DNA from: Cheilinus undulatus
Taxonomy: Eukaryota; Chordata; Actinopteri; Labriformes; Labridae
Assembly (NCBI RefSeq): GCF_018320785.1
Contig: NW_024571684.1
Location: forward strand, 1 to 64,000
Direction of reading: 5' to 3'
DNA: 64,000 nt
Shown here: positions 6,001-59,117 of the stretch, piece by piece
How positions within the stretch are numbered: the first letter of the stretch is position 1
How the letters are laid out: each line of letters begins with the position of its first letter
Notes under the pieces: model-generated
What the model was told of the DNA's origin: nothing
What the model saw: only the letters and a program-made list of their open reading frames with translations
The model's database searches: none
Made by a program: the position numbers and the translations under genes

Positions 6001-7090
6001 AATTAGTAACCAAATTTTCTTTGTCAAAAAGCCAGTTTTTCAGACATCTTCAAGTACGAAGCTCTGTCTCAAAGACATATGCATGTTTTCCTGCTTTGCC
6101 TCAGACTCTGGTATTGCCAGCTTTGTGAATGCTCTCTCATCTCTTAAAGGGGCTGTGTCCTCTATATACTCTAACATTCATAAACTTAGATCAGACTCCA
6201 TGGAAGCTTATAGGACAACCTGGGAAGCTAGTTTAGGAATGGAGATTTCAGAAAATATCTGGAATAAGGCTCTACGCAGAGCGCACAAATCCTCTATTTG
6301 TGCCAAACATTGTTTTATTCAATGTAAAATTCTACACCGTGCTCATTATACTAAAGAACGTTTGGCAAAAATGTTCAAGGAGGTATCACCATCTTGTGAT
6401 CGCTGTCATCGAACCCCAGCTAATTATATTCATATGTTTTGGCAGTGCCCACATCTGTCTAAATTCTGGCTAGAAATTTTCTCCACTTTATCTACAATTA
6501 TAGGTGCACTGATCCCACCAAATCCATTTACAGCTATTTTTGGGGTTCTGCTGCCCCCACTCAGCCTCTCTTCCTCACAAGAAGACACTTTGGCCTTTGC
6601 CACTCTTCTTGCCTGATGGCTAATTTTATTAAGGTGGAAGTCTATTCTACCTCCCACACATACACAGTGGCTAAAGGACGTTTTAAATTTTGTAAGACTT
6701 GAAAAAATGAGGCTGTCAATTTGTGGACGATCAGGAAAGTTTGATAAGATTTGGAACCCATTTTTTGCCCTAATTAATGGCACACAATTTGTATTTACAC
6801 CAAACTGAGCTAAAGACTGGACAAGTTAACATAACTTTATACTCTGAGGTCACTTTATACAGTATTTTATTTTGTGTATTTACTTTTTTTTTTTTGCTTA
6901 AACACTGTCTATGTATGCTCTGTTTGTCTCGATGTTGATTTTATTATGTGCTGGGGGAATGTGCCAAGAAGGGGAGGGTGGGGTAGGATTATTTTATTTT
7001 GTTTCCTTCTTTGCAGATTCTATTCAAGTGTTTTATTGTACATAAATGTTTTGTACTCTGCAATAAGTCAATAAAAAGAGGAAAAAAAAA
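3020..7090 (+). mobile_element. Tx1/L1-like LINE, ORF2 relic with poly-A tail, 5'-truncated
   Basis: A non-LTR retrotransposon ORF2 decayed by stops and frameshifts. The N-terminal endonuclease domain (about 3080-3760) shows the LNCKGLNNP start, the QETH catalytic block (after a TAA at about 3152), the GGDFNCW block and SDHASV. The reverse transcriptase follows (about 4370-5280), with the fingers motif GKSLGPDGFPDEFY, SYRPISLLNVD, the LDAEKAFDRVE block, TRQGCPLSPLLF and the catalytic YADDLLLF. A C-terminal Cys/His motif CDRCHRTPANYIHMFWQC lies near 6390-6450. Lesions include frameshifts near 3950 and 4290, a TAG at about 4851, a break near 5284 and another near 5610. ORF1 is missing, so insertion was 5'-truncated. 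The copy ends with aataaaaag and a short A-run at about 7090. It cannot now move by itself. Confidence 0.93.
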
Positions 7091-15700: not shown

Positions 15701-16200
15701 TTGAAAATTGTATCATTAGCAGAATTAGCTAATGATACTCAGGGAAAAAAAAGTGAAAGCACAGTAGAGACCTCAATGTAAAACTGTGTATTAAGAGACA
15801 TTAGCTATGGTTACATGAGCATTTTTTTCACAATCAGATTAAATTCATTCGGATCAGAGATGAAAACGTCTCTGTACACACGGATGCTGGATGATACAAT
15901 CTGATTCAGATACATGTGCTCAGACATCTCAGTCTGATCTGAATACAGATTTTCTGACATGCGCTTTATCGTCCCACCAGTTAAATCTACTGACAATTTA
16001 CAATAGAAGAAGAAACTCTTCTTCTGCACCTGTAAACAAACCGCCTGACTCTAGCCACACACAAATGACGATGACACCGCCAGGTGTCATCTGGCCCGAT
16101 GTTTGGGGAAAAGATGGATTTTTTAAAATATTAATTTTCAATATTTACGTATTTCAGGAAAAAAATTCCAATCACTTGTCATGATCTAGCTATGATTATA

Positions 16201-18772: not shown

Positions 18773-20242
18773 ATTATAGCAAGGAAAAGTCATAATACAT
18801 TGCGATAAATTAGTTAAATATGGTATATTAAACTCTCTTTTGAGCGGGGAGCAACATTATAAAAAGACGCACAGCAGAGCAGCTGCAGCATCACCTCAGC
18901 TCTACAAACATGCTGTCTAAAAATAGGCTGATACAGACTGCATGGTTTTTAAGACTGAAGGAGATTAGTTTATTTTGTCTACTTTTGATGTTTTTTTTTT
19001 TTTTTTTTTTTAAAGATGAAAAATTTAACCACCGTGCACAGCCACGAATGCAGGCATCGTATCTCGCTTTGGTGAGTGATTCTGTACCATGTCAGCCTGA
19101 TTTAACCCCTCATTATAAAAATATGAAATGCCAAACTAACACCAACTAAATTTATTTACATATGATTTAATTATATGTCAAAAAGCAGTGCAATTATAGT
19201 CTTGATCACTTACGTTAAACGGGAAATCGTTTATAAATCCTGTGGTGTATTTAACTCCAGGTCTCATCAAATGGTAAAAAATCCTCTCATAACAGTAAAA
19301 ACAAATTCCTTAATTTAATCCTAATCTGTACACAGGCTGTCCTATTACTTGGTGCAGCGCTGATCCAAAATTACACACGGATATGGTCAGTTCATGACGC
19401 ATGCAGGGGAGTAAGGGGGATTCTGATAGAATGGATATGCACAAGATCGACTGTAGGGCTCATACGTGCGCTTAAGTCAAGTTTTCACTCAGTAGGTGAG
19501 GTAGTAGCTCTATGAGCAGTACGGGAGCGCAGCAGTCCAGGCCAAATCTCTGCAGGATCCTCCTCTCTCTGGACTCTGTGCATTAATCCTAGGTCAGGTG
19601 AAATAATCTCAGGGTCAGATCAGATATTGAGGACAACAGGTAGCTGTTTTAAAGCCATAAACAGTCTTGTTGAATCAATATTTTCAATGAATATTCCAGT
19701 CCTGTAAATTTAGCATCAATGGGTCCTAAAAACATTTAAAAATGTGGAAAAATTGCTGTGATACAAGGACAGCATATTTATGTCCTGTTTAGATTATATC
19801 TTTGAACATCCAAGGCATTTTAATGGTGTAATGGGTGGAAAAAAGTCCAATGTCTGGCCCTAGGCTTTTTGACCTTGAAACATTTTGGGATAAAAGTTAG
19901 GAACCCTGCTTTTAACCGTCAGATCGCTCGCTTATTTTTTTTTTTTTTTAACTCATCCGCATGTGAAAATATTGGTTTGTATACTCACTTGTGTTTGTAC
20001 TTTATATTATCTTTATTTCTACTTTTTTCTACTCAGAAATAGACCTTTATCATGTGCTGCAGACAGTTCTGATGTTTCTGGTGCTCCCCCTGTTAAAGCA
20101 GCAAGCTCAGTGGTTCATACTGCTGTAGTCCATTCAGAGGGGGAGAATAAGGAAGCGTGTCACGTTGGGCAGACATGCGCAGTAAGACAAAAATGCCCCA
20201 AATGGGGGTAGAAGATCAGATCAAGTGTTTTCAGATCAAGTA

Positions 20243-34533: not shown

Positions 34534-37500
34534 TCAGTATCTGTATTTTGTAGAATAATCCTTTGGGGACACCACGAGACCTCTTCCTTTTCTTGCACCG
34601 CGGTAAACGGTTTCAATAATGTCAATCATCTCCTGCTTGTCCTCCATTGTCCAGTTTATCTTGTTGTTGTTTCCAGTCCCCAGATCAATCATGATGTGCT
34701 TGTTCCTGAAAAATCATTAGAATGATAATAAATGAAACAGAGAAGTTCTGAGGTTTAACAGTGGTTCATTAACTACGTCTGACGGAGGGTTTTAAATGAC
34801 CAAGCCTTTATAGAGAAGAATAAGTTAACCTGTATTACTTTAATCATCATGAAATAATTAACATTTACTCTCATGTTGTTTGTCTATAAATGAAAATGTC
34901 ATACCTGAAAAAGAACATGACCGTGCAGGGGTCATACAACTCGTACATCTTGTTGAAGTCAGGTACTTCTGTGATATCCACCAGATAGATGACGGCAAAA
35001 TTCTTGACCTGTCATGACAGGTTAGTGGTTAACAACAACACCTTAATAACAATAAATCAAAAAAGAAACCAAGAAAACATTTATCTTGGACTTCTGGTTT
35101 TAAGGAGTTAAGGTAGCTGCTTTGTCAGTAAAGTAAAGCCATCATATCCTTCTAATATATTTACATTAGGCCATTAAAATAAACCCTGAATGATAACAAA
35201 AGCAATAAAATTAAAGTTACACCAATAAAGAACCTCAGATTTCACAACACTTTGCTTTGTGTTTGATGTTCCAAACTGAGCCAGAAAACTTCAGACTGTG
35301 GATTAAATATCCAAAACCCTCTGAAGAGTCAACTAATCAAACCTTCAAAAGAAAAACATCAAATAAATTACATATGATGAGGTATTAAAATTGCAGGTTA
35401 AATAGGATTTTCAGACAAGTTACTCCATGTCAAGAGCATTTTGATTATGAGCTACAGGTGTATAAAACAACAGCCATAGATGACAACAAAAAAAGCTAAA
35501 AGGTGGAGAAAATAAAGGCTTGTAGGTCAAGGATTGGACACGATAAATCTTGGTTTTGGTTCAGTTGTTGTTCTGACGTTATTCACTTAGAGCAGTGATA
35601 CTCAACATGTAGCTCATTTGTGATGATTTGTGGCTCTTTTATGTCTAAATTTGAAACATTATTCCTCCAGAAAACCTTTAAAAAGGACAATTTTACCTCA
35701 AAAATCATCCACTGCAAGTAACATTAATCAGTTTGTTTCTCACGCTTATACAGTAGGCTTTAACTGTCATCTCTATTTTTGTCTGTATATTTCCGTTGCC
35801 CTTATTTGCAATTTTTTGCTACTTTATTTCCATTTTTACTGCTTTTGAGCCATTTTTGATAGGGATGCACCGATCCATTTTTTTTCCAGTTCCGATTACC
35901 AGTACCAATTCCGATATTTTTTTAACAATTATTATTGTTGTTGGTATGTGTGAGGTTACATGAGGCTGTAGTAAACCACCCAGCTCCTCTTATTACAAAT
36001 TAAAAACATACAAAAATGAATTAAATTTAAATGTATTCCAAACAAATTTATTGTAACTACTACTAAATATTGATTGACTAGTCGGTTAAACTAATAACTT
36101 ATCATTTTTTATGAACATGGGCTTGAAGTCCCTGTCTATAATGCTTTTTAATGAACCTCCCGCCACTAGAGACCGCTGTAGCTTCAGTCAATGGCCGCAG
36201 CCTTCCTCTCTGACCCTTCACCAGATATAAACAATGAGAAGCTCGGCGGTGGCTAACCTGTTAGCGTATAGTAGGAAGACCGCGGTACGACAGTTTTCCA
36301 AAGAAGTAAATGGAAATAAAGTGGTATGTGGGCTGTCGAGGGTTAAGCTCACGTATGACTACTCACCTGAAGTGAAAAGAGGCCAAATATCAAAGCACCA
36401 TATTAATCTGTAAAGAGGAACAAAGGCGGGCGACGCTAGCGCTAGCCACGCTGTATTATCATGCTAACGTCACACCCACTCTTCTTTGTGTTCTCTCATC
36501 TTTAGACTAGTTTTGACTATTCTAAATATAAGTTTACGTTTAATCTACTCGGTAATTATATGGCAAAGAACATCCTAACTAATACTAGCTCAGCTACACA
36601 GACTGTCTCGTGTTAGACCGCGGTGCATTCATGGTCTACCGCAAACTGTAAGATGGATTTGGATCAGTCACTTGGATCGAGATCGTCAGTCAGTTATCCG
36701 ATCTATTAATTCCGATACCGATATCGGATCAGATCAGTCCCATCCCTGATTTTGACACTTTTATCCAGCTGTTTGCTAATTTTTGCACCTTTTCTTTGCC
36801 TTCTTTGCCATTTTTTGCCTCATTTAAACTGCCTTTTGCAATTAAATGTCACTACTTTCCCATTTTTCCACTTTGATGCTTTTTGCCCATTTTCCCCTGT
36901 GTAATTCTGATTTTTGCCTTGTTAAGTCAAATTTCCCTAAGGGAACAATAAAGTGTATCATATCGTATTATATTTTACTCATATTTCTCTTGGTTTTTGC
37001 CACTTTAGGACCATTTTTGCCACCTGTAACTCGTGTTTTTGCCAATTTGCACCCATTTTTGGCACTTTCTGCCCCTTTATGCCACTTTCCTCCCAGTGTT
37101 TGCCACTTTAGCCCATTTTTAACACTTCTTTTTGTCACTTTTTTCCCCTTTTTGACACTTTTATCTGTTTGCAAATTTTTGCACCTTTTTATTGCCATTT
37201 TTTTTGCTCATTTAAGCTGCCTTTGCAATTAAATGCCACTAGTTTCCCTTTATCCCACTCTTTGATGCTTTTTGCCCATTTTTCTCCCCTTTATTCTGAT
37301 TTTTGCCTATTTAAGTTACTTTTGATTTTTCTCCAGGTTTTAGCCACTTCTGAACCATTTTTCCACCGGTAACTCATTTTTTGGTCTCTTTTCACCCATT
37401 TCTGACACTTACTTTCTGCCCTTTTATGCCACTTTTCTCCGAGTGTTTGTCGCTTTAAGCCCATTTTTCCCCTTTTTGACACTTTATTCCTGCTTTGTTT

Positions 37501-40500
37501 TATTTTTTGACCCTTTTCGCCAATTTAAGCTGCTGTTTGCAATTTAATGCCACTTTTCTCAGATTTTTCCCATTTCAGTCACTTTTCACTCATTTTTTGC
37601 AACGTTTTCGCCACTTTTAACTCATTTGGTCACTTCCCGCCCATTTTTGCCACTTTTCTCCCAGTGTTTGCTGCTCTTTGACCACTTTAGCCACCATCAA
37701 CTTATTTTTATTCCCACTTAACTCCTATTAGATTGTGGCCTTTGTAAATGTATTTTTCAACAGTTTGGCTCTTTGGTTGAGTAACACTGACTTAGAGACT
37801 GACTGACTTCTGCCAGTGTTTACAAATATTCTCTGTTATGAACCAGTTTACCTACAGTCAGTGCTATTGTTCATATTCACAGAGCAGCTAACGATGCTAA
37901 CACCTAAACACACGCTGTTTATAAGCTGCCTCACCTTTTCAGCGATGCTAACACCTAAACACATTAGGCATGTTTACATGGACCACTTGCAATCGGAATA
38001 AATTCCTGATCGGAATGAAAATGCTTCATATACACACTCCATTCGGAATGAAATCTTCCAATCCGGCGCATTCGGAAAGGAATTTCACACCGAACGAGAG
38101 GGGTGGTTTATGTCAATCATTCAGATCAGCGTCCATGAAAACACTTGATCTGATCACCTCTCCCCGTTTGGGGTGTTTTTGTCTTACTGCGCATGTCTGC
38201 CCCACGTGACATGCTTCGTTATTCTCCTCCTCTGAATGGACTGCAGAAGAAGCCTATGTACCGCTGAGCTGCTTTGACAGGGGAAGCACCAGAATATCAG
38301 AACTGTCTGCAGCACACGATAAAGGTCTATTTCTAAGTACAATAAAGTAAAAATAAAGATAATATAAAGTACGAACACGAGTGGAAAAACCAATATTTTC
38401 GCACGGGGATGAATTGAAAAACACGAGCGAGCGTCCTGACGGTGTAAAGCAGGGTTCCTTACTTTTATCCCAAAATATTTCAAGATCAGAAAGCCGAGGG
38501 GCAGACATTGGATTTTTTCCATTACACCATTAAATGTTTTGGATGTTCAAAGATATAATCTAAGCAGGACAGACATAAATGTGCTATGGATGACAACATT
38601 TTTTAATTTACATTTTTAGACTCATAGAGCTACAACCCTCACCTACTGAGTGAAAACTTGACTTTAGCGCACATATGAGCCCTGCAGTTGTTCTTCTGCA
38701 TATCCATTCAATCAGAATCCCCCTTACTCCCCTGCATGCGTCATGAACTGACCCATCTCTGTGTGTAATTTTGGATGCCTTTTAGCACTGCACCAAGTCA
38801 TAGGACAGCCTGTGTACAGATTAGGATTACATTTGTAGTTATAAAGAATTTGTTTTTACAGTGAGAGGAATTTTTACCATTTGATGAGACCCGGAGTTAA
38901 AAACACCACAGGATGTCCCGTTTAACTAAGTGATCGAGACCATAATTGCACTTCTTGTTGACATAAAATTATATCGTATGTAAATAAATTTAGTTTAACT
39001 TAGTTTGGCATTAAAGATTTTTATAATAAGGGGTTAAATCAGGCTGAAACTGAACTGAATCACTCACCAAAGTAAGGTATGATGTCTGTGTTTGTGGCTG
39101 ATGGACTATTACGCAGGGAAAGTATTTGCTATCCTGACAGCAGCTGTTTTAATCCCTCACAGATAGAAGTTTGGTTTTTAAAAGGCAAAAACCTCTGGCT
39201 CTGATATTTGTTAAGGCCTAGAGATGCAGACAGGACTGCACTCTGTGAGGGAGCGAATTGCAGCTATGCATGGTGGTTAAATTCTTCATCTTAAAAAAAA
39301 TAAAACAAAAAAGAATTTAAAAAACATAAAAAGTAGACAAAATAAATTAATCTCCTTCAGTGTAAAAAATCGTGCCGTCTCAGCCTAGTTTTTGACAGCA
39401 TGTTTGCAGAGCTGAGAGGATGTGCTGCTGGGCGCTCTGCTGTGTCTTTTAATGATGTTCCTCCCTGCTCTAAAGGGAGTCAATTTACCATAGGCTATTT
39501 AAATCATTTATCGCATTGTATTACGACCTTTCCTTGCTATAATGATAGATAAATTGTGATAAGTGAGTGGAAATTTGTATGTGAAATACGTTAATATTGT
39601 AGATTAATATTAAAAAATATCAATTTTTTTCCCCAAACGTCTTGTGGGCCAGATGACTCCTGTTGGCACTGGACCTGGCCCGCCGGCCGTCATTTGGGGA
39701 TGGCTAGTGTAAGTCAGGAGGTTTGTTTACAGATGCAGAAGAAGAATTTCTTCCTCTATGGCAAACTGTCAGTAGATTTAACAGGTGGGACGATAAGGCG
39801 CATGTCAGAACATTTATATTCAGATCAGACTGAGATGCCTGAGCACATGTATCTGAATCAGATTGAATCTTCCAGCGTCCGTGTGGACAGAAACGATTTC
39901 ATCTCTGATCCGAATGAATTTAATCTGATAGTGAAAAAAAGGCTCCTGTAACCGCAGCTAGTGTTTATAAGCTACCTCACCTTTACAGCCATGCTAACAG
40001 CTAAACACTGTTTATAAGCTACCTCACCTTTACAGCCATGCTAACAGCTAAACACTGTTTATAAGCTACCTCACCTTTACAGCCATGCCAACATCTAAAC
40101 ACACTGTTTATAAGCTACCTCACCTTTACAGCCATGCTAACATCTAAACACACTGTTTATAAGCTACCTCACCTTTACAGCCATGCTAACATCTAAACAC
40201 TGTTTATAAGCTACCTCACCTTTTCAGCCATGCTAACATCTAAACACTGTTTATAAGCTACCTCACCTTTACAGCCATGCTAACATCTAAACACTGTTTA
40301 TAAGCTACCTCACCTTTACAGCCATGCTAACATCTAAACACTGTTTATAAGCTACCTCACCTTTACAGCCATGCTAACATCTAAACACTGTTTATAAGCT
40401 ACCTCACCTTTTCAGCTATGCTAACATCTAAACACTGTTTATAAGCTACCTCACCTTTTCAGCCATGCTAACAGCTAAACACTGTTTATAAGCTACCTCA

Positions 40501-43500
40501 CCTTTTCAGCCATGCTAACATCTAAACACTGTTTATAAGCTACCTCACCTTTACAGCCATGCTAACATCTAAACACTGTTTATAAGCTACCTCACCTTTT
40601 CAGCCATGCTAACATCTAAACACTGTTTATAAGCTACCTCACCTTTACAGCCATGCTAACATCTAAACACTGTTTATAAGCTACCTCACCTTTTCAGCCA
40701 TGCTAACATCTAAACACTGTTTATAAGCTACCTCACCTTTACAGCTATGCTAACATCTAAACACTGTTTATAAGCTACCTCACCTTTTCAGCTATGCTAA
40801 CATCTAAACACTGTTTATAAGCTACCTCACCTTTACAGCCATGCTAACATCTAAACACTGTTTATAAGCTACCTCACCTTTACAGCCATGCTAACATCTA
40901 AACACTGTTTATAAGCTACCTCACCTTTACAGCTATGCTAACATCTAAACACTGTTTATAAGCTACCTCACCTTTTCAGCTATGCTAACATCTAAACACT
41001 GTTTATAAGCTACCCCACCTTTTCAGCCATGCTAACATCTAAACACACTGTTTATAAGCTACCTCACCTTTACAGCCATGCTAACATCTAAACACTGTTT
41101 ATAAGCTACCCCACCTTTTCAGCCATGCTAACATCTAAACACACTGTTTATAAGCTACCTCACCTTTTCAGCCATGCTAACATCTAAACGTTGTTTATAA
41201 GCTACCTCACCTTTTCAGCCATGCTAACACCTAAACACTGTTTATAAGCTACCTCACCTTTTCAGCCATGCTAACATCTAAACACTGTTTATAAGCTACC
41301 TCACCTTTACAGCCATGCTAACATCTAAACACTGTTTATAAGCTACCTCACCTTTTCAGCCATGCTAACATCTAAACACTGTTTATAAGCTACCTCACCT
41401 TTTCAGCCATGCTAACATCTAAACACTGTTTATAAGCTACCTCACCTTTTCAGCTATGCTAACATCTAAACACTGTTTATAAGCTACCTCACCTTTACAG
41501 CTATGCTAACATCTAAACACTGTTTATAAGCTACCTCACCTTTACAGCCATGCTAACATCTAAACACTGTTTATAAGCTACCTCACCTTTTCAGCCATGC
41601 TAACATCTAAACACTGTTTATAAGCTACCTCACCTTTACAGCCATGCTAACACCTAAACACTGTTTATAAGCTACCTCACCTTTTCAGCCATGCTAACAT
41701 CTAAACACTGTTTATAAGCTACCTCACCTTTACAGCTATGCTAACATCTAAACACTGTTTATAAGCTACCTCACCTTTACAGCCATGCTAACATCTAAAC
41801 ACTGTTTATAAGCTACCTCACCTTTTCAGCCATGCTAACATCTAAACACTGTTTATAAGCTACCTCACCTTTACAGCCATGCTAACATCTAAACACTGTT
41901 TATAAGCTACCTCACCTTTTCAGCCATGCTAACATCTAAACACTGTTTATAAGCTACCTCACCTTTACAGCCATGCTAACATCTAAACACTGTTTATAAG
42001 CTACCTCACCTTTACAGCTATGCTAACATCTAAACACTGTTTATAAGCTACCTCACCTTTACAGCCATGCTAACATCTAAACACTGTTTATAAGCTACCT
42101 CACCTTTTCAGCCATGCTAAATGCTAAACACTGTTTATAAGCTACCTCACCTTTACAGCCATGCTAACATCTAAACACTGTTTATAAGCTACCTCACCTT
42201 TACAGCTATGCTAACATCTAAACACTGTTTATAAGCTACCTCACCTTTACAGCCATGCTAACATCTAAACACTGTTTATAAGCTACCTCACCTTTACAGC
42301 CATGCTAACATCTAAACACTGTTTATAAGCTACCTCACCTTTTCAGCCATGCTAAATGCTAAACACTGTTTATAAGCTACCTCACCTTTACAGCCATGCT
42401 AACATCTAAACACTGTTTATAAGCTACCTCACCTTTACAGCTATGCTAACATCTAAACACTGTTTATAAGCTACCTCACCTTTACAGCCATGCTAACATC
42501 TAAACACTGTTTATAAGCTACCTCACCTTTACAGCTATGCTAACATCTAAACACTGTTTATAAGCTACCTCACCTTTTCAGCCATGCTAACAGCTAAACA
42601 CTGTTTATAAGCTACCTCACCTTTTCAGCCATGCTAACATCTAAACACTGTTTATAAGCTACCTCACCTTTTCAGCCATGCTAACATCTAAACACTGTTT
42701 ATAAGCTACCTCACCTTTACAGCCATGCTAACATCTAAACACTGTTTATAAGCTACCTCACCTTTACAGCCATGCTAACACCTAAACACTGTTTATAAGC
42801 TACCTCACCTTTTCAGCCATGCTAACATCTAAACGTTGTTTATAAGCTACCTCACCTTTTCAGCCATGCTAACACCTAAACACTGTTTATAAGCTACCTC
42901 ACCTTTACAGCCGTGCTAACACCTAAACACTGTTTATAAGCTACCTCACCTTTTCAGCCATGCTAACACCTAAACACTGTTTATAAGCTACCTCACCTTT
43001 TCAGCCATGCTAACACCTAAACACTGTTTATAAGCTACCTCACCTTTACAGCCATGCTAACACCTAAACACTGTTTATAAGCTACCTCACCTTTTCAGCC
43101 ATGCTAACATCTAAACACTGTTTATAAGGTACCTCACCTTTTCAGCCATGCTAACATCTAAACACTGTTTATAAGCTACCTCACCTTTTCAGCTATGCTA
43201 ACATCTAAACACTGTTTATAAGCTACCTCACCTTTTCAGCTATGCTAACATCTAAACACTGTTTATAAGCTACCTCACCTTTACAGCCATGCTAACACCT
43301 AAACACTGTTTATAAGCTACCTCACCTTTACAGCCATGCTAACACCTAAACACTGTTTATAAGCTACCTCACCTTTTCAGCCATGCTAACATCTAAACAC
43401 TGTTTATAAGCTACCTCACCTTTACAGCCATGCTAACATCTAAACACTGTTTATAAGCTACCTCACCTTTACAGCTATGCTAACAGCTAAACACTGTTTA

Positions 43501-46500
43501 TAAGCTACCTCACCTTTACAGCCATGCTAAATGCTAAACACTGTTTATAAGCTACCTCACCTTTACAGCCATGCTAACATCTAAACACTGTTTATAAGCT
43601 ACCTCACCTTTTCAGCCATGCTAAATGCTAAACACTGTTTATAAGCTACCTCACCTTTACAGCTATGCTAACAGCTAAACACTGTTTATAAGCTACCTCA
43701 CCTTTACAGCCATGCTAAATGCTAAACACTGTTTATAAGCTACCTCACCTTTACAGCCATGCTAACATCTAAACACTGTTTATAAGCTACCTCACCTTTT
43801 CAGCCATGCTAAATGCTAAACACTGTTTATAAGCTACCTCACCTTTACAGCCATGCTAACATCTAAACACTGTTTATAAGCTACCTCACCTTTACAGCTA
43901 TGCTAACATCTAAACACTGTTTATAAGCTACCTCACCTTTTCAGCCATGCTAACAGCTAAACACTGTTTATAAGCTACCTCACCTTTTCAGCCATGCTAA
44001 CATCTAAATACTGTTTATAAGCTACCTCACCTTTACAGCCATGCTAACATCTAAACACTGTTTATAAGCTACCTCACCTTTACAGCCATGCTAACATCTA
44101 AACACACTGTTTATAAGCTACCTCACCTTTACAGCCATGCTAACATCTAAAAACTGTTTATAAGCTACCTCACCTTTACAGCTATGCTAACATCTAAACA
44201 TACTGTTTATAAGCTACCTCACCTTTACAGCCATGCTAACATCTAAACACTGTTTATAAGCTACCTCACCTTTTCAGCCATGCTAACATCTAAACGTTGT
44301 TTATAAGCTACCTCACCTTTTCAGCCATGCTAACACCTAAACACTGTTTATAAGCTACCTCACCTTTTCAGCCATGCTAACACCTAAACACTGTTTATAA
44401 GCTACCTCACCTTTTCAGCTATGCTAACATCTAAACACTGTTTATAAGCTACCTCACCTTTTCAGCTATGCTAACATCTAAACACTGTTTATAAGCTACC
44501 TCACCTTTACAGCCATGCTAACATCTAAACACTGTTTATAAGCTACCTCACCTTTACAGCTATGCTAACATCTAAACACTGTTTATAAGCTACCTCACCT
44601 TTTCAGCTATGCTAACATCTAAACACTGTTTATAAGCTACCTCACCTTTACAGCTATGCTAACATCTAAACACTGTTTATAAGCTACCTCACCTTTTCAG
44701 CTATGCTAACATCTAAACACTGTTTATAAGCTACCTCACCTTTTCAGCTATGCTAACATCTAAACACTGTTTATAAGCTACCTCACCTTTACAGCCATGC
44801 TAACATCTAAACACTGTTTATAAGCTACCTCACCTTTACAGCTATGCTAACATCTAAACACTGTTTATAAGCTACCTCACCTTTTCAGCTATGCTAACAT
44901 CTAAACACTGTTTATAAGCTACCTCACCTTTACAGCTATGCTAACATCTAAACACTGTTTATAAGCTACCTCACCTTTTCAGCCATGCTAACATCTAAAC
45001 ACTGTTTATAAGCTACCTCACCTTTACAGCCATGCTAACATCTAAACACTGTTTATAAGCTCCCTCACCTTTACAGCCATGCTAACATCTAAACACTGTT
45101 TATAAGCTACCTCACCTTTACAGCTATGCTAACAACTAAACACACTGTTTATAAGCTAACTCACCTTTTCAGCCATGCTAACATCTAAATACTGTTTATA
45201 AGCTACCTCACCTTTACAGCCATGCTAACATCTAAAAACTGTTTATAAGCTACCTCACCTTTACAGCTATGCTAACATCTAAACATACTGTTTATAAGCT
45301 ACCTCACCTTTACAGCCATGCTAACATCTAAACACTGTTTATAAGCTACCTCACCTTTACAGCCATGCTAACATCTAAACACTGTTTATAAGCTACCTCA
45401 CCTTTACAGCCATGCTAACATCTAAACACTGTTTATAAGCTACCTCACCTTTACAGCCATGCTAACACCTAAACACACTGTTTATAAGCTACCTCACCTT
45501 TACAGCCATGCTAACACCTAAACACTGTTTATAAGCTACCTCACCTTTTCAGCCATGCTAACAACTAAACACTGTTTATAAGCTACCTCACCTTTTCAGC
45601 CATGCTAACATCTAAACACTGTTTATAAGCTACCTCACCTTTTCAGACATGCTAACATCTAAACACTGTTTATAAGCTACCTCACCTTTACAGCCATGCT
45701 AACATCTAAACACTGTTTATAAGCTACCTCACCTTTTCAGCCATGCTAACATCTAAACACTGTTTATAAGCTACCTCACCTTTACAGCCATGCTAACAGC
45801 TAAACACTGTTTATAAGCTACCTCACCTTTACAGCCATGCTAACATCTAAACACTGTTTATAAGCTACCTCACCTTTACAGACATGCTAACATCTAAACA
45901 CTGTTTATAAGCTACCTCACCTTTACAGCCATGCTAACAGCTAAACACTGTTTATAAGCTACCTCACCTTTACAGCCATGCTAACATCTAAACACACTGT
46001 TTATAAGCTACCTCACCTTTTCAGCCATGCTAACATCTAAACACTGTTTATAAGCTACCTCACCTTTACAGCCATGCTAACACCTAAACACTGTTTATAA
46101 GCTACCTCACCTTTACAGCCATGCTAACACCTAAACACTGTTTATAAGCTACCTCACCTTTACAGCCATGCTAACATCTAAACACTGTTTATAAGCTACC
46201 TCACCTTTTCAGCCATGCTAACATCTAAACACTGTTTATAAGCTACCTCACCTTTACAGCCATGCTAACATCTAAACACTGTTTATAAGCTACCTCACCT
46301 TTACAGCCATGCTAACACCTAAACACACTGTTTATAAGCTACCTCACCTTTACAGCCATGCTAACACCTAAACACTGTTTATAAGCTACCTCACCTTTTC
46401 AGCCATGCTAACAACTAAACACTGTTTATAAGCTACCTCACCTTTTCAGCCATGCTAACATCTAAACACTGTTTATAAGCTACCTCACCTTTTCAGACAT

Positions 46501-47256
46501 GCTAACATCTAAACACTGTTTATAAGCTACCTCACCTTTTCAGCCATGCTAACATCTAAACACTGTTTATAAGCTACCTCACCTTTACAGCCATGCTAAC
46601 AGCTAAACACTGTTTATAAGCTACCTCACCTTTACAGCCATGCTAACATCTAAACACTGTTTATAAGCTACCTCACCTTTACAGACATGCTAACACCTAA
46701 ACACACTGTTTATAAGCTACCTCACCTTTACAGCCATGCTAACACCTAAACACTGTTTATAAGCTACCTCACCTTTACAGCCATGCTAACACCTAAACAC
46801 TGTTTATAAGCTACCTCACCTTTACAGCCATGCTAACATCTAAACACACTGTTTATAAGCTACCTCACCTTTACAGCCATGCTAACACCTAAACACTGTT
46901 TATAAGCTACCTCACCTTTACAGCCATGCTAACATCTAAACACTGTTTATAAGCTACCTCACCTTTTCAGCCATGCTAACATCTAAACACTGTTTATAAG
47001 CTACCTCACCTTTACAGCCATGCTAACATCTAAACACTGTTTATAAGCTACCTCACCTTTACAGCCATGCTAACATCTAAACACTGTTTATAAGCTACCT
47101 CACCTTTTCAGCGATGCTGTAGAGAACTTCGTCCATTTTCATACACGTTGGGTCCCAGTCGTGTCCGAAGCGGATCACCAGGACCCGGTCCTCCTCTGAG
47201 AGGATGGCTTGGTCCACCTGCCAGCCATTATGGAGATGTGGTAGCATGTACGACAT
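34534..47256 (-). CDS. txnl4a: TXNL4A (Dim1, U5 snRNP 15-kDa protein), complete
   Basis: Coding exons are 47256-47104, 35008-34905 and 34705-34534 (153+104+172 = 429 nt; 142 residues and TGA), the usual length for this protein. It is a thioredoxin-fold component of the U5 snRNP and tri-snRNP, needed in the nucleus for pre-mRNA splicing. Exon 1 gives MSYMLPHLHNGWQVDQAIL and HDWDPTCMKMDEVLYSIAEK; exon 2 VKNFAVIYLVDITEVPDFNK and MYELYDPCTVMFFF; exon 3 RNKHIMIDLGTG, NNNKINWTMEDKQEM, ending SPKDYSTKYRY. I see no lesion. Junctions are AAG|GTGAGG to acag|GTC (phase 0) and CAG|GTATGA to ttcag|GAA. Intron 2 is 199 bp, but intron 1 is 12,095 bp and holds two transposons and a 7-kb satellite built from the exon 1 donor region. 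An acceptor at 47284 implies an intron in the 5' UTR. Confidence 0.97.
35009..35592. other. TXNL4A intron 1, unique part next to exon 2
   Basis: AT-rich intronic DNA, no repeat unit recognised. It includes the branch/acceptor region for exon 2. Confidence 0.7.
35593..37789 (+). mobile_element. hAT-type element, family C, in TXNL4A intron 1, TSD acttagag
   Basis: Starts cagtgatactcaacatgtag and ends tttggttgagtaacactg. Perfect 8-bp flanks acttagag lie at 35585-35592 and 37790-37797. The interior has the same degenerate ttttgccactttt units as 32158-33388. It is longer than its relatives because another element (35860-36749) sits inside it. No transposase frame. Confidence 0.9.
35860..36749. 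mobile_element. element nested in the family C copy (tagggatgcaccgat end)
   Basis: Left end tagggatgcaccgatcc; right end gatcagtcccatccctga, an inverted match over agggatg. Subterminal parts have mirrored 'ttccgat' and 'gatatcgg' blocks. The low-complexity host makes the target repeat ambiguous. The interior is CG-richer, with no transposase frame. Confidence 0.7.
37889..37965. repeat. stranded outer units of the TXNL4A intron satellite
   Basis: About one and a half units (gctaacacctaaacacacg, ctgtttataagctgcctcac, cttttcagcgatgctaacac) on the exon-2 side of the X element at 37966. They keep gcgatgct, as in TXNL4A exon 1, where nearly all inner units read gccatgct. Confidence 0.85.
37966..39958. 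mobile_element. DNA transposon X, copy 2, inserted in the satellite
   Basis: Inverted relative to copy 1 (15801-20242) and without its nested inserts, so it provides the empty site for them. Left end ttaggcatgtttacatgg; right end ggctcctgtaaccgcag. Satellite units border it on both sides, so it landed in the array near its far edge. There is no transposase. A frame at 39694-39948 is open on both copies' homologous strands only by chance and is not supported as a gene. Confidence 0.85.
39959..47103. repeat. 47-bp satellite, about 150 units, copies of the TXNL4A exon 1 donor junction
   Basis: Unit (plus strand): ctgtttataagctacctcac, then ctttacagcc or cttttcagcc, atgctaacat and ctaaacac. The period is 47 bp (49 where 'aacacactg' occurs). 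On the TXNL4A strand each unit has AGCATGGCTG(T/A)AAAG, then GTGAGGTAGC and TTATAAACAG. The authentic exon 1 end and donor are AGCATCGCTGAAAAG then GTGAGGTAGC. The array touches exon 1 without a gap: the last unit is the exon edge itself. Variants (acatct, acacct, acagct, aatgct) form higher-order patterns, including an 850-bp block at 45471 repeated at 46321. Confidence 0.97.
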
Positions 47257-47650
47257 GCTCAAATCTTTGTCTCACTTCCCAAGCTGGAGAAAAACACATA
47301 ACACACATCATGTAGCAGGCAGGGGGAGTAAGGTTGGGATGACATCCTTATTTCGCTCCTACATCAGTCCAAACAGGGACCGTGAGTTTAGGATCGAAAG
47401 GCTGGCCTTATGAAACTGAGCTAAGCTAACATTAGCCATTTAGCAACGACAAGTACAGACGGACATTAAAGAAACCCACTGGAGGAAATTATAAACAGTG
47501 TCTAATGAAACCCCTACCGTAAAAACGGAAACGGCGTCTGCCGTTAAGATAACTTGCAGATGTTGGTTACCAGAAGATTCTTCTAATTCCAGTAAAGACG
47601 GCTGCTCATGGACCTGAACGAAAACGTTTTCCTTGTTTCCCCTACGTCAT
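47257..47650 (-). promoter_or_regulatory. TXNL4A 5' UTR and probable promoter region
   Basis: On the minus strand, ttttctccag ends at 47284 and gives 27 nt of leader before the ATG at 47256. A donor-like ACG|GTAGGG at 47518 could close a first non-coding exon starting around 47650. The block is less AT-rich than its surroundings. I see no obvious TATA box. This comes from splice sites only. Confidence 0.4.
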
Positions 47651-47707: not shown

Positions 47708-48535
47708 CATGGACTGCAGAAAGAATTGGACAAATTAATTGGTTAAAGCAGTTACTTAAAAAACCTCCAGCTCAATTTGGAAGATAGCTAGCTGCTCAAA
47801 TGTCTGCTTTTTCTCGCCAAGCCTTCTTATCCTGGTCTCTCATCTACAAGCACAACTTTTCTCCTCACAAATATTACATCTGGAATAACAAACACAAGTC
47901 TCTCTTCATAAAAAACTGTTATTTTACTGGTAGATCAGCTTTTTAATTGGTCTTCTTTTCACATATGAAGAATTTCTGTCAAATATAGCATACCTGAAAC
48001 ACCTGGGGATTTAGCAAATGTTTTTAATGTTTGATCACCAATAAAGTCAATTAAGTTTCCTTCAAGCTTACCAGAGGTTTTATCCATCAAACTTTCACAT
48101 TTAAAACAGGTTTAAAACTGATTTCAGCTGTAGCTTCTGCGATCTATGTCCTGAAACTGTTGTACATTTATTTTGGCGTTGCTCTGCTGTAAAGAAATTC
48201 TGGCGAAAACTCTGATTTCATTCACAATAAAATAGATAAACACTCTGAATTACTATGGAGGAACTGGACTCATGGAAAACGGTACAATGAAAACAGCTGT
48301 TTATTCTTGATAAATCTTTTATTATATTGGTCAAATTCCATATCTATAGTTGTACATTTTCAATACATTTTAAAATGAGTTCAAACAATATTTGAATTCC
48401 ATCAAATTCTCTGAAGAACAAAAAGCAATTAAAAGAGTTTCAGCTTGTTACATGTTTGATATCTCTACATAGACACTCATCCCCCAGCATTTAATGTTTA
48501 CTTGTTTGTTTGTTCTGTCTTTTTTCAATTGTTAA
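47708..48535 (+). mobile_element. L1-type LINE 3' fragment, sense
   Basis: Broken frames read WIKQLLKKPPAQFG, FLSWSLIYKHNFSPHKYYIW, NNKHKSLFIKNCYF and, after several stops, a Cys/Trp region (about 48130-48215) and LFLINLLLYWSNSI. This is the C-terminal part of a fish L1 ORF2. It starts close behind the TXNL4A promoter, is heavily decayed, and runs into the 21-bp satellite. Confidence 0.7.
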
Positions 48536-48540
48536 TGCAC

Positions 48541-50391
48541 CAAATACAACTGTATACATAAAATACACAACTGTATACATAAAATACACAACTGTATACA
48601 TAAAATACACAACTGTATATATAAAATACACAACTGTATACATAAAATACACAACTGTATACATAAAATACACAACTGTATACATAAAATACACAACTGT
48701 ATACATAAAATACACAACTGTAAACATAAAATACACAACTGTATACATAAAATACACAACTGTATACATAAAATACACAACTGTATATATAAAATACACA
48801 ACTGTATATATAAAATACACAACTGTATATATAAAATACACAACTGTATACATAAAATACACAACTGTATATATAAAATACACAACTGTATATATAAAAT
48901 ACACAACTGTATACATAAAATACACAACTGTATATATAAAATACACAACTGTATATATAAAATACACAACTGTATACATAAAATACACAACTGTATATAT
49001 AAAATACACAACTGTATACATAAAATACACAACTGTAAACATAAAATACACAACTGTATACATAAAATACACAACTGTATACATAAAATACACAACTGTA
49101 TACATAAAATACACAACTGTATACATAAAATACACAACTGTATATATAAAATACACAACTGTATACATAAAATACACAACTGTATACATAAAATACACAA
49201 CTGTATATATAAAATACACAACTGTATACATAAAATACACAACTGTAAACATAAAATACACAACTGTATACATAAAATACACAACTGTATACATAAAATA
49301 CACAACTGTATACATAAAATACACAACTGTATACATAAAATACACAACTGTATATATAAAATACACAACTGTACATATAAAATACACAACTGTATATATA
49401 AAATACACAACTGTATATATAAAATACACAACTGTACATATAAAATACACAACTGTATATATAAAATACACAACTGTATATATAAAATACACAACTGTAT
49501 ACATAAATTACACAACTGTATATATAAAATACACAACTGTATATATAAAATACACAACTGTATACATAAAATACACAACTGTATATATAAAATACACAAC
49601 TGTATACATAAAATACACAACTGTATACATAAAATACACAACTGTACATATAAAATACACAACTGTATATATAAAATACACAACTGTAAACATAAAATAC
49701 ACAACTGTATATATAAAATACACAACTGTATACATATAATACACAACTGTATATATAAAATACACAACTGTATATATAAAATACACAACTGTATACATAT
49801 AATACACAACTGTATATATAAAATACACAACTGTATATATAAAATACACAACTGTTTATATAAAATACACAACTGTATACATAAAATACACAACTGTATA
49901 TATAAAATACACAACTGTATATATAAAATACACAACTGTATACATAAAATACACAACTGTATATATAAAATACACAACTGTATACATAAAATACACAACT
50001 GTATATATAAAATACACAACTGTATATATAAAATACACAACTGTATACATAAAATACACAACTGTATATATAAAATACACAACTGTATATATAAAATACA
50101 CAACTGTATACATAAAATACACAACTGTATATATAAAATACACAACTGTATATATAAAATACACAACTGTATATATAAAATACACAACTGTATACATAAA
50201 ATACACAACTGTATATATAAAATACACAACTGTATACATATAATACACAACTGTATATATAAAATACACAACTGTATACATAAAATACACAACTGTATAC
50301 ATAAAATACACAACTGTATATATAAAATACACAACTGTATACATAAAATACACAACTGTATACATAAAATACACAACTGTATACATAAAAT
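48541..50391. repeat. 21-bp satellite, about 88 units
   Basis: Unit acaactgtatacataaaata(c), with variants at the middle dinucleotides (tatacat, tatatat, taaacat, tacatat). Because 21 is a multiple of 3 and the unit has few stops, several frames stay open over hundreds of codons on both strands. These are not genes. The order of variants repeats about every 10 units (around 210 bp) in 48990-49350. It lies between two L1 3' fragments. Confidence 0.97.
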
Positions 50392-50880
50392 GAACCTCAT
50401 TGTATTAATTGGCAAATTCCACAGACATAAAGCAAAGTTCTCAAAGTCCTTCCCAAACTTTTTTTTTTATGATAGAATTCAATTCTTATATGAATATGTT
50501 AAACTATGTGACAATGTAACACATTTTATCATTTTACAATGAGTTATTTCCTGTAATTCCCACTGACTTACTGTATAATCTTAATTTGTTGTGATGTTTT
50601 ATTTATGTTATCTTTTGTAATATGTTAAGTTTGTTCTTCTTATATAATTATTTGCTTCCTTTGTACCATTAAAAAACTGTTTCTTTTTTTGTATGTATTG
50701 TGACTTTCAGTTGTCTTCCCTTTAGCAATATTTTCTGTTTTTTTTTCCTTTGTAATGCTTATTAATTTGTTGAACTGTTGTGTTTGTATTTATGTTTGCC
50801 CTTTCACCTGTAGGCTCCGTGCTACGTGTGTGTTTAGTCTTTATGTAGACTCTTTTAAACAACAAAGAAAAAAAGTAAAA
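50392..50880 (+). mobile_element. second L1-type 3' fragment, right of the satellite
   Basis: Reads IVLIGKFHRHKAKFSKSFPN and then FFYDRIQFLYEYVKL before stops and a 3' UTR. The block is the counterpart of the last coding part of the fragment at 47708-48535. It is therefore a separate copy, or a duplication of the same end, with the satellite in between. Confidence 0.55.
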
Positions 50881-53985: not shown

Positions 53986-56900
53986 TTAGTCAGCAGGATG
54001 CTCCGGACACGAGCGATTCACCTCAAACCACTCGTCTATACACCTGAAACAGGGAGACGACAGAGAAGTTTGTACCTTTAAAACCAAGAAGAAACGCCAT
54101 CATCTCCACGACTCATTTTCTAATACATTCAGTTTTTACAAAACATTTAAATAATGTCATTGCCTGTGCTGTTATTTTGTAAAAACATATCCCTCTTCTC
54201 TTACTATATTTAGCTTCACTCTGATTGGATGGGAGGAGTTAGATCAGTGTTTTTCAAAGTGACGGTCCAGACCTCTGAGGCAGGGGTGTCAAACTCAAGG
54301 CCCGGGGGCCAAATCCGGCCCATGGTACAGTTACACCCAGCCCACCAGGTCATATCGTATTTTTATCATAACTGGCCAACTGGTTTGAGGACAGCAGATT
54401 TCCTCCAGTTTAAAAATGTAAACGTAACCATGGCGATCTAAAATATCCTTGTTAGGATATCCTTGTTTGTGTTCTTTGTGTATTTAATTTTTATTTTTGC
54501 ATCACTATTTGTTATTATTATTATTATATATACACTTTTATTATTATATTCTAATATTATGAGTATATATTAACAGATAAACATTTTTATTTAATGTAAA
54601 ATTTTTCTTTTTTTTCCTTTTCCTCCCTCTCTTCATCTCTCACTGTCTCTCATGTACCACTATAATATCACTCGTCTGTCTTGTTATTTCTCACCAAATT
54701 AGAAAAAAAATAAAATTTAAAAATCCTTGTAAAGTCTTGAAAATTAGAAAAAAGTTAAAAGTTAAAATAATTAGATAAAAGTCAGGAATGTGGGACAACA
54801 CATTTCTGTTTTTATTTCAGATTCTTAATTTTGCATTCAGTTATGGTTTGACTTTTTATTTTATATGTTGACCTTTTTAATTCACAATTTTGACTTTTTA
54901 TCTTATTTTTTGACCTTATAGATCCCCAATTTTAAATTTTAAGTAATATTTTGACCTTTCAAATTCATTATTATGATTTTTTATCTTATTTTTTGACCTT
55001 TTTAGCTCCTTACTTTGACTTTTATCTCATAATTTGACCTTGTAGATCCTCAATTTTAAATTTCCTTTAAAACTCAGTTTAAATATTTTTCTCACTCTTT
55101 AATGTTTTAAGCCGCTGATTTTGAATTTATCTAATATTTTGACTGTCAAGAATAATGATTTCAACTTTCTGTCTCATATATTTGCCTTTTAAAAACATTA
55201 TTTTGACTTTGAATGCCAAGTTTTAAACATTTTGAGCTAATAAGTTTGAATTTTTATCTCAGATTCTGAGCCTTTAAACTTATTACTTCAACCCTTTTCA
55301 ATCTCAAAATCAATAATCATCAGTTTATCAGGTTTTTTCCCCCATAATTCATTGCTGGTGAAAATGCATTTGACAGTTTAGGGTTAAATGTGGACCCTGC
55401 TCAGCCCTCAGGTTGGACCCAAAGTCAGAATTTGGCCCCTGCTGGGATTTAGTTTGACAGCCCTGCTCTAAGGGGTCAGGGAATCAGGGCTCTAATGGAG
55501 ACACGGAGGGAGGAAAAGTCAACCCATGACTCTATTTTTAACAGCAGCATTTTAATTTCTTTTTTCCTTAGTAAAATTTGAACCTGCTATTTTTATCTAT
55601 CTTTTTATCTATCTACTTTTGTATTATCTAATTTATCTACAGCTTTTATTATTTAGTATGTGGTACTTTGCACTGCACCGCTGGTGAGAACTTCATCTCG
55701 TTTTTATTGTGTATGTGCATACACAGCGTAAAGTGACAATAAAGGAATCTTGAAAAAGATGCTACTGCTGATTATTAGAGTAATTCAGAGGTTAAAATGT
55801 ACAAGCATCATCCATTACAGCTTGAATAGGATAAGGATAGGATTCCTCTGCCTTCTATTGTCCAGGGATAAGAGGAATGGGCCTCTGATAACGTAAACTA
55901 GCATATTTGGCCAACTTTATTAGCTTCACCTCCATCAGTTAAGGAAGGTTCATACTTTAAAAGCAGACATAGTCTAGTCAGAGCAAAAAACATCTCACAT
56001 CAGCACGCCTGGCTTTCATTTACAGCATCCTTTAGCGTCTTTTAGCTCTTAGCTAACTGATTATCATACTTTGGAGCATACATACAGTCTGCACAGAAAC
56101 ACAAACTTGGCTCACTGTTTTTTATTCCAAAAGAAGCTTAGCTAAGCCAAATATAGATAAGAGCTGGAATATCTGGAATTCTCATAGTTCTAAAATCAAT
56201 CTCTCTTTTAGTATGGGTCTTTACTGATGTCCACCAGCTCATTTAAATTCTGTTTAAGCGTCACTGGTTATTAGTACAACTACGAACAGTGCAAGAGGTG
56301 TCAGAACTGTGCAGGGCATTTTTATAAATACATCTGATTAAGACAAATGAAGAAGAATTTGCTAAAATGAGGGTCATTTCCTTCCAGAACAACCGCCATT
56401 TGTGCTTATAGCCACTTATGCATGAATAATCACGAGTTTGCACATTTTAAAGGGAAAACTTTATTTTAGGTTAATATAGCATTCAAATAAATATAACATA
56501 CAAAAGTATAAGCAAGTGAAGTCTATCGCCCAAACCTGAGGGTGGACCAAGTGGACAAGTGGGTGTGCCCAGGCCCATGAGGTGTGCCCCTAACGGCGCG
56601 GCTGCTATATGATGGTTGACACGGCGATGTTTGGGAGCCTTCAAATTATTCGACTGGTACAGTTCTCATCTCTGCTTGTTAGCTCTAAGACCTTAGCCTT
56701 AGCTTCACGTCTTTTTTTAGCTTCACTTAGCTTAGTTTAGCTTCGATTAGCTTACCTTAGGTTAGCTTTTGCTTCGCTTCACTTAGCATAGATTAGCTTC
56801 GCTAAGCTTGACTAAGTTCAGTTTATCTTTTTTATAGCTTCACTTAGCTTAGTTTAGCTTCGCTAAGCTTGACTAAGTTCAGTTTATCTTTGCTTAGCTT

Positions 56901-59117
56901 CACTTAGCTTAGTTTGGCTTCGCTAAGCTTGACTAAGTTTAGTTTATCTTTTTTAGCTTCACTTAGCTTAGTTTAGCTTTGCTTAGCTTACCTTAGGTTA
57001 GCTTTTGCTTCGCTTCACTTAGCATAGACTAGCTTTGCTAGCCTAAGTTCAGTTTATCTTTGCTTAGCATCACTTAGCTTAGGTCAGCTTTTCTTAGCTT
57101 AGTTTAGCTTCACTAAGCTTGACTAGGTTCAATTTCTCTTTGCTTATCATCACTTAGCTTAGTTAAGCTTTGCTTAGCTTAGTTTAATTCAACTTAGCTT
57201 AGTATATGTTTAGTTAGCTAAGCTTCACTAACTTTAGCTTAGCTTCACTTAGCTTAGTTTAGCATTGCTTAGTTTAGCTTCACTTAGCTTAGTTTAGCTT
57301 CACTTAATTTAGCTTCACTTAGCTTAGTTTAGCTTCACTTAATTTAGCTTCACTTAGCTTAGTTTAGCTTCACTTAATTTAGCTTCACTTAGCTTACTTT
57401 AACTAATCTTAGCTTAGTTTAGCTTTACTTAGCTTATTTTAGCTTTACTTAGCTTATTTTAGCTTTGCTTAGCTTTGCTTCTCTTAGCTCAGTTTAATCT
57501 TACTTAGCTCAGTTTAATCTTACTTAGCTCAGTTTAGCTTTGCTTAGCTTTGCTTCTCTTAGCTCAGTTTAATCTTACTTAGCTCAGTTTAATCTTACTT
57601 AGCTCAGTTTAGCTTTGCTTAGCTTTGCTTCTCTTAGCTCAGTTTAATCTTACTTAGCTCAGTTTAGCTTTGCTTAGCTTTGCTTCTCTTAGCTCAGTTT
57701 AATCTTACTTAGCTCAGTTTAATCTTACTTAGCTCAGTTTAGCTTTGCTTAGCTTTGCTTCTCTTAGCTCAGTTTAATCTTACTTAGCTCAGTTTAGCTT
57801 TGCTTAGCTTTGCTTCACTTAGCTCAGTTTAATCTTACTTAGCTCAGTTTAATCTTACTTAGCTCAGTTTAATCTTACTTAGCTCAGTTTAGCTTTGCTT
57901 AGCTTTGCTTCTCTTAGCTCAGTTTAATCTTACTTAGCTCAGTTTAATCTTACTTAGCTCAGTTTAATCTTACTTAGCTCAGTTTAGCTTTGCTTAGCTT
58001 TGCTTCACTTAGCTCAGTTTAATCTTACTTAGCTCAGTTTAATCTTACTTAGCTCAGTTTAGCTTTGCTTAGCACAGATGTTGTAACAGTGGAACAACTG
58101 CTTCTTTTGGGCTCTGTCCAAACAAAACAGAAACATCCACCACCTCTTCAAAAGTACACTAGCAAAGACACTTCAGCCCATCTTTGCTGAATGTGTAACC
58201 TTGAGACAGAAATAGTTTTCATCTTTAAAGCTGAGCTACTCTGGATGTAAGAGCAACAGATTTATGTAAAGGAGTGTGGTAAATCTTCCCATCTTTCTTT
58301 GAAAGCTAACACAATTTGTTAAAGTACACTTGTTGTAGCTTTATTTTTTGGGGGATAATTTAGCACACTTAGTTTAAAACTGAAAACACATGGTTAGTTT
58401 CACTTTTTCTCTATCCAGAATAATTCATGTTGAAGTAAACTTCTGTGACTTTTCTATTTTCCACAAAGAACTTTCAGCATTTCCATCTTTGTTTTCCTCT
58501 GCTGCTGCATGCTGGTGTTGGTGAATATCCAGTGGTGTCTATATCAAAAGGACACATCACCAGTTTAAATAAATATATTTTGTCTTTTTGTGAGACTATT
58601 ATCACCCTTTTGCTTTTGGTCCGGCAGCATGGTAGCTTATTTTAGCATAGAGCTTGAAAACAGGGCATCTGGCATCCAAAGGTAAAAAACTCCCCATGTA
58701 GCACCTAAAAGTTGACTAATTAACATGCTGTATCACCGTTGTTTAATGCATAAAAGGGTTATGTAACACTTTTTCTTGGCTGTGTATGTAGGGCACATGT
58801 TAAGCATGCTAGGCTGAGTAAACTGGTCATTAGCATTTGCTTTCTATTTACTGCAGAAAATTCGGAGACGTTTAAATTAATCATCCACTCTTGGGGGGAA
58901 AAGAGTTGTTATTGCATCAAATGTTAACCAGCAGAAATTAATGTTTAAAAAATGCATTGTGCATCTGTCCAACTATTTCTAACTGAATTCATGTGTGTTT
59001 GCGTCAGTTACCCTTTATGGTAGATACAGAGGCAGGGCAGCCTGGCAATGGTATCTCCCTGCTCCAGCTCCTCTAAGCAGATGGCACATTCCCCGGAGTC
59101 TCTGGACAGGATGTCCT
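53986..59117 (-). CDS. znrf1: ZNRF1/ZNRF2-type RING E3 ubiquitin ligase, last two exons
   Basis: Minus-strand exon 59117-59012 (106 nt; acceptor tttatcag, donor GTAACT) and final exon 54043-53986 (58 nt; acceptor ctgtttcag, stop TAA) join in phase through a glycine codon. The product ends SRDSGECAICLEELEQGD, TIARLPCLCIYHK, GCIDEWFEVNRSCPEHPAD. All eight zinc-binding positions of the C3H2C3-type RING are present (CxxC, C-x-C..H, C, CPxH). ZNRF proteins are membrane-associated ubiquitin ligases on endosomes, lysosomes and synaptic vesicles; the myristoylated start and first zinc finger are encoded upstream, and I did not find those exons before 64000. The terminal HPAD favours ZNRF1 over ZNRF2, by memory only. 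The 4968-bp intron holds a hAT-type element and an AGCTT satellite. The gene is in tandem with TXNL4A. Confidence 0.9.
54281..55465 (+). mobile_element. hAT-type element, family 'caggggtgtcaaact', in ZNRF intron
   Basis: Ends caggggtgtcaaactcaagg and tagtttgacagccctg. The flanks ctctgagg and ctctaagg match at 7 of 8. The interior is a degenerate repeat of 'ttttgactttttatctca' and 'gacctttt(a)aattc' units. No transposase. Confidence 0.85.
55466..56694. other. ZNRF intron, unique sequence
   Basis: No exon or element recognised. Confidence 0.5.
56695..58075. repeat. AGCTT-based satellite in the ZNRF intron
   Basis: About 1.4 kb built from 'cttagctt(c/t)a' decamers. The left half (to about 57470) is irregular. 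The right half is ordered into blocks of cttagctcagtttaatctta and cttagctcagtttagctttg plus cttagctttgcttct. The number of first-type blocks per cycle varies from 1 to 3, giving higher-order units of about 55, 75 and 95 bp. No coding potential. Confidence 0.9.
58076..59011. other. ZNRF intron next to the RING exon, unique sequence
   Basis: No repeat or exon recognised. Confidence 0.5.

Follow-up and report, generated by a model that had tools for sequence, protein, structure and literature searches.

Introduction

Tandem repeats that sit at exon-intron boundaries have been described in human genes. Genes in segmental duplications carry variable internal tandem repeats at these boundaries, with 27 intron modifications reported, and the gene-changing repeats of human paralogs have units of 30 bp on average, repeated 4 times (PMC2812944). 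The choice between identical 5' splice sites (donors) has been followed in minigenes: where two identical strong donors were placed 52 nt apart and the introns on either side measured 365 nt, splicing is reported to have taken the upstream donor alone; when the donors were very weak, most transcripts skipped the larger exons, and the smaller exons were still spliced preferentially from the upstream site (PMC9225289). The reverse preference, for the downstream (intron-proximal) donor, applies under intron definition, a result of Reed and Maniatis that the same paper recalls (PMC9225289).

Here, we describe a tandem array in intron 1 of TXNL4A (also referred to as DIM1) of Cheilinus undulatus. 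It lies in the window, by which we mean the whole stretch of DNA analysed, the first 64 kb of contig C33; the assembly that was searched comprises 1,173,462,691 bases in 46 contigs. The array belongs, as an extreme example, with the known minisatellites at exon-intron boundaries, and its seeding by TXNL4A's own exon 1 donor junction is supported by the evidence set out below. On balance, we consider it probable that this minisatellite, grown from the gene's own donor, is mostly a tolerated passenger.

The TXNL4A gene and its surroundings

TXNL4A is intact on the minus strand of the window, with its coding sequence in three exons, as judged by tblastn and by splice borders read from the sequence. 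The tblastn query was the human protein. The coding part of exon 1 (47104..47256, minus strand; codons 1-51, ending ...YSIAEK) matches at 51 of 53 residues in an alignment that overruns 2 codons into the intron; exon 2 (34905..35008, minus strand), the borders of which were read from the sequence, matches at 35 of 36, and the coding part of exon 3 without the stop (34537..34705, minus strand) at 56 of 57. Intron 1 is 12,095 bp long. We take it to be old, because in the human gene intron 1 divides the same coding parts. In human TXNL4A, c.131 falls within exon 1 and exon 3 is the last exon (PMC7394406).

The whole-genome protein search detected no second copy of TXNL4A: all three of its matches lie at the three exons. 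As this is the only TXNL4A gene found in the assembly, its splicing must work well enough. An acceptor-like TTTTTCTCCAG is present at 47284-47285 (minus strand), 27 bp 5' of the ATG, so a noncoding upstream exon is possible and coding exon 1 may be internal. When the exon 1 peptide was compared with viral contigs, 13 pattern matches were obtained, with no relative among them.

Several other features of the window were recorded. A second large array (48546-50391) has a 21-bp unit in about 88 copies and lies about 1.4 kb upstream of the exon 1 region; no inverted repeats of at least 20 bp were found in 48400-50600. A TTAGC-rich array at 56717-58073 has a 5-bp period, with a 75-bp sub-pattern over part of its length. 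At 3155-6616 (plus strand), overlapping open frames resemble a broken LINE-type endonuclease and reverse transcriptase, the translation being judged by eye.

An array that begins inside exon 1

Tandem Repeats Finder (TRF) reports a single array at 39962-47118, with period 47, 151.7 copies and 96% matches. It is a tandem array of units tens of base pairs long and it spans the exon-intron boundary itself, starting at 47118, 15 bp within exon 1. These 15 bases, the exon edge AGCATCGCTGAAAAG (47104..47118, minus strand), are the first of the repeat by both the TRF border and the unit parse, and represent the seed. The junction reads AGCATCGCTGAAAAG/GTGAGGTAGC, and the intron belongs to the array from its very first base, which bears out an earlier sequence-only reading in which array and exon adjoin with no unique DNA between them. 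The intronic part of the array (39962..47103, minus strand; TRF and unit parse) holds the true donor at 47103 and 151 donor-junction copies in units of 47 or 49 bp, the last at 39980. As assembled, these 152 donors are spaced by 47 bp in 138 cases and by 49 bp in 13, each unit having an intronic part of 32 or 34 bp.

Both counts agree with the sequence-only reading, which had put the number of copies of the exon 1 donor junction at about 150. The extent that it gave is indeed array, with the edge at 39962 rather than 39959, and its description of the unit is correct as far as it goes and incomplete at one base: the 6th base of the exon-like part, C in the exon, is replaced by G in 121 copies and by A in 30, and is C in none of the 151. 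At a second variable position, where units carry T or A, the exon's base A is found in 60 of the 150 copies tallied. The common unit also holds TAAACAGTGTTTA, an odd-length perfect palindrome. Among the 151 units, 29 are distinct and their order is non-periodic. Near-identical stretches within the array reach 946 bp at 97%. A strict higher-order unit was considered and rejected: the lag peaks are weak (z 3.0 at lag 2, z 2.6 at lag 6) and repeated strings comprise at most 6 identical units.

Repeats readily collapse or inflate during assembly, and the array or its length might have been made in that way. We consider this very improbable, given the 29 distinct units in non-periodic order and the independent relic unit, described below, that an inserted dispersed repeat sets apart from the array.

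The likeness between unit and exon is specific to this locus. In the window outside 39001-47300, on either strand, the exon's last 15 bases occur once exactly (in the relic), never with 1-2 mismatches and three times with 3 mismatches, and this scarcity excludes a chance likeness. A search of the whole genome with the array (very common words skipped) gave 44 matches, all at the TXNL4A locus. As a control, 35 other donor-like sites of the window were examined, with four arrays masked and the true exon 1 donor included in the mask, and none has its 21-nt context exactly repeated within 12 kb downstream; the 21-nt context of the true exon 1 donor recurs exactly in the relic. One could still suppose that a satellite of other origin was inserted at the donor and that it resembles the exon edge by chance or through later conversion, and the base that differs from the exon in all 151 copies would suit such a history. 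However, the relic equals the exon edge at 15 of 15 positions, the array query, with very common words skipped, matched no other locus in the genome, and outside 39001-47300 the window has no further 15-mer with fewer than 3 mismatches; this origin is scarcely credible.

A relic unit and the order of events

Two kilobases past the end of the array, in the same intron, a pattern search found a further unit at 37916-37934. Together with the adjoining sequence it forms a relic of 1.5 fossil units (37892..37962, minus strand; pattern search and sequence reading), with the exact exon edge AGCATCGCTGAAAAG and a donor GTGAGGCAGC at 37934; the stretch from 37962 to 37892 reads GTGTTTAGGTGTT AGCATCGCTGAAAAG GTGAGGCAGCTTATAAACAGCGTGTGTTTAGGTGTT AGCATCG. 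The relic matches the exon edge at all 15 exon bases and at 6 intron bases besides, as do none of the 151 array copies. An exact exon edge in the relic and a repeat start within the exon uphold the proposal that the seed was made of 15 exonic and about 32 intronic bases, the intronic part being 32 or 34 bp.

Array and relic are separated by 1,999 bp (37963..39961, minus strand; border uncertain by about 3 bp) that match sequences on many contigs, with at least 64 matches in the assembly when 40 of 1,786 candidates were scored. Several copies of this 2-kb repeat have their termini at query bases 1-3 and 1996-1999. When the flanks are rejoined at 39961 and 37963, the donor spacing stays 47 bp and the relic falls in register, though these borders were picked to restore the 47-bp unit and the register depends partly on that choice. 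A target-site duplication was searched for at the borders of the inserted repeat and none was clear. Given the dispersed nature of the repeat and the kept 47-bp spacing, it was most likely inserted into a distal unit, cutting off the relic. A second, interrupted copy of the repeat lies at 15798-20233 (plus strand) in four pieces that are 80-84% identical; it is absent from the 64 matches, for which 40 candidates were scored.

The array is older than this insertion, and it changed as a group after the relic was isolated. Because the older state survives in both the relic and the exon, the replacement of C by G or A most likely spread through the array after the insertion, as the T and GATGTT variants probably did. 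A tree built from 11 copies places the inserted one on a terminal branch of 0.055 substitutions per site, with modest support for its position (0.66). Substitution rates in vertebrates are about 0.3-1 x 10^-8 per site per year, which would give the insertion an age of some 5-20 million years, as a rough figure only. Persistence of the array over such a branch suits neutrality and benefit equally.

The outer edges hint at how the array began. On both strands of the 64 kb taken together, the motif AGCATCG is found only three times: at the exon edge, in the relic unit and at the far end of the relic. The first and last form a 7-bp direct repeat, with a proximal copy found by sequence search at 47112..47118 (minus strand) and a distal copy, located by reading and search, at 37892..37898 (minus strand), past which the sequence departs from the repeat into non-repeat TTAGCTGC. 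As duplication between microhomologies leaves a short direct repeat at both edges, this arrangement suggests a microhomology-mediated duplication; the same edge pattern could result whenever an array stops partway through a unit. An array-free intron 1 would have begun GTGAGG(T/C)AGCTTATAAACAG... and would have carried another AGCATCG at around +33 to +37, running on into TTAGCTGC. In the proposed model, a 47-bp tandem duplication would have arisen between the two AGCATCG copies, one at the exon edge and the other about 33-37 bp into the intron, and would have expanded by unequal exchange or slippage. Insertion of the dispersed 2-kb element into a distal unit would later have set the relic apart, with the array itself still turning over.

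What the copied donors may do

The 152 donors are nearly uniform in sequence: 149 have the 9-mer of the true donor, AAG/GTGAGG, one has AAG/GTGAGT and two have AAG/GTGGGG, which score as stronger and weaker, respectively, than the common 9-mer on a donor matrix. In its context, the common 9-mer has a predicted pairing with U1 of -10.1 kcal/mol, the TXNL4A exon 2 donor reaching -7.2 and a perfect site -14.0. Only two further sites with scores this high, one being that of the relic, are present in the remaining 4,953 bases of intron 1, as against a mean of 0.28 in shuffles of that stretch. The donor motif shows no significant deficit of substitutions: of 18 substitution classes over the 47 positions, 2 fall in the donor 9-mer with 3.4 expected (P 0.30; low power), as counted over 150 copies with the GT insertions excluded and linked changes each counted.

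Use of any downstream donor would extend the frame from exon 1 into the intron as GTG AGG TAG, with the stop as the third codon past the true junction, a frame that had already been read correctly from the sequence alone. The TAG precedes the last junction of the message, as the junction of exons 2 and 3 lies downstream. An RNA with a stop upstream of a later exon junction is a target of decay, so RNAs spliced from array donors should be decay targets.

Under the passenger reading, the cell probably mostly ignores the copies. The first, exon-adjacent donor would be used in most transcripts, the exon being defined from its upstream end with a 12-kb intron behind it; RNA from array donors would be degraded, and the array would add at most a small unproductive fraction. 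An intron of 12 kb is better modelled by exon definition, under which the true donor should win. That the array is neutral and the nearest true donor wins, one of two outcomes foreseen earlier, fits best, and agrees with the exclusive use of the upstream identical donor in minigenes (PMC9225289). Some points count against it. In predicted openness the true donor ranks 150th of 152, below nearly every copy; under intron definition a downstream donor would be favoured (PMC9225289); and the minigene donors are stronger and their exons internal, whereas coding exon 1 of TXNL4A may be the first, with the cap alone upstream. As for RNA structure more generally, a 245-nt segment made of the exon edge and array folds better than every one of 200 shuffles (z -4.2); we rejected this as functional support, since repeats are expected to pair mutually and local opening gives no advantage to the true donor.

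The array donors might instead compete with the true one, the resulting stop-bearing RNAs tuning the level of TXNL4A, perhaps with spliceosome activity or array length. The keeping of the true 9-mer in all but three donors, one of these being stronger on the donor matrix, the in-frame stop that follows every downstream donor and the predicted openness of the copies would all suit such control. Splicing factors are reported to self-regulate often by unproductive splicing (PMC9262138), and human TXNL4A is dose-sensitive, with 34-bp promoter deletions that lower reporter activity by 59% and 72% (PMC7394406). On the other side stand the substitution count given above, with its low power, the likeness of the copies, for which recent amplification is enough, and the minigene result (PMC9225289); we regard this control as unlikely. 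A more specific form, in which a length-variable donor bank would act as a splicing sensor, with changes in U1 supply or spliceosome fidelity giving unproductive TXNL4A RNA in amounts tunable by copy number, seems to us quite unlikely. U1 titration, decoy donors and feedback through decay, as suggested from the sequence at the outset, are thus left without positive support, the donor being not significantly under-mutated (at low power) and the upstream minigene donor exclusive (PMC9225289); they are not disproved, and a regulatory reading is unproven and not favoured.

The copies might serve U1 in another way, drawing it near the promoter to guard against early 3'-end cleavage or to aid transcription, while the true donor is spliced. 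Each of the 152 donors is predicted to pair with U1 like the true one, and TATAAA, a weak variant of the poly(A) signal, occurs 152 times in the array, which has no AATAAA. Protection of transcripts by U1 is established (PMC5499120, PMC4889658). However, the donor and TATAAA counts both follow from one unit and are hence not independent evidence, and other genes manage without arrays; this role appears improbable. Finally, each unit border, ...AAAG/GTGAGG, could act as acceptor and donor in turn, so that the array would be removed stepwise and without trace. AG/GT stands at every border, and new introns are known to arise when AGGT segments are duplicated in tandem (PMC3443670). By eye, though, the sequence before the AG is purine-rich with no pyrimidine tract, and other AGs (ACAG, TTTAG and TTAG) come earlier in each unit. 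At 47 bp, a unit is also too short for the usual vertebrate intron, and we give stepwise removal hardly any credence.

Comparison with known systems

With the passenger reading preferred, the array remains of interest in several ways. It is a clear case of an exon edge turned into satellite DNA. It also offers a rare natural test of the choice among near-identical donors, for which most work relies on engineered pairs: the 152 donors hardly vary in strength and differ mainly in position. Few minisatellites can be polarised and roughly dated, as this one can through its relic unit. In the open-licence literature, as far as titles and the openings of abstracts were listed, we found no minisatellite grown from a gene's own donor, which is weak evidence of absence.

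Four described systems come close in different respects. CeRep25B of C. elegans is likewise an intronic minisatellite near splicing decisions, but its 24-base repeat is palindromic and occurs in many genes, and it is not described as a copy of a junction of its host gene (PMC4039745). Minigenes likewise set identical donors in competition within a transcript at a spacing of about 50 nt, as engineered pairs of stronger donors at internal exons; in TXNL4A they form a natural series of 152 (PMC9225289). Introns gained by tandem duplication share with the TXNL4A array the copying of splice signals when a segment spanning or close to an exon-intron border is duplicated; such new introns usually result from one duplication, whereas in TXNL4A the donor has been copied many times within an existing intron (PMC4974935, PMC3443670, PMC2891723). 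The human boundary repeats share with the TXNL4A array a minisatellite across the exon-intron boundary, able to add splice sites; unlike those of recent human paralogs, the array has 151 donor-junction copies in a gene found only once, a fossil unit that polarises it and no evidence of a new intron (PMC2812944). The TXNL4A array differs from the boundary repeats and from intron gain in its scale, in the copying of the donor only, in its place in a core splicing gene found once, and in its fossil unit.
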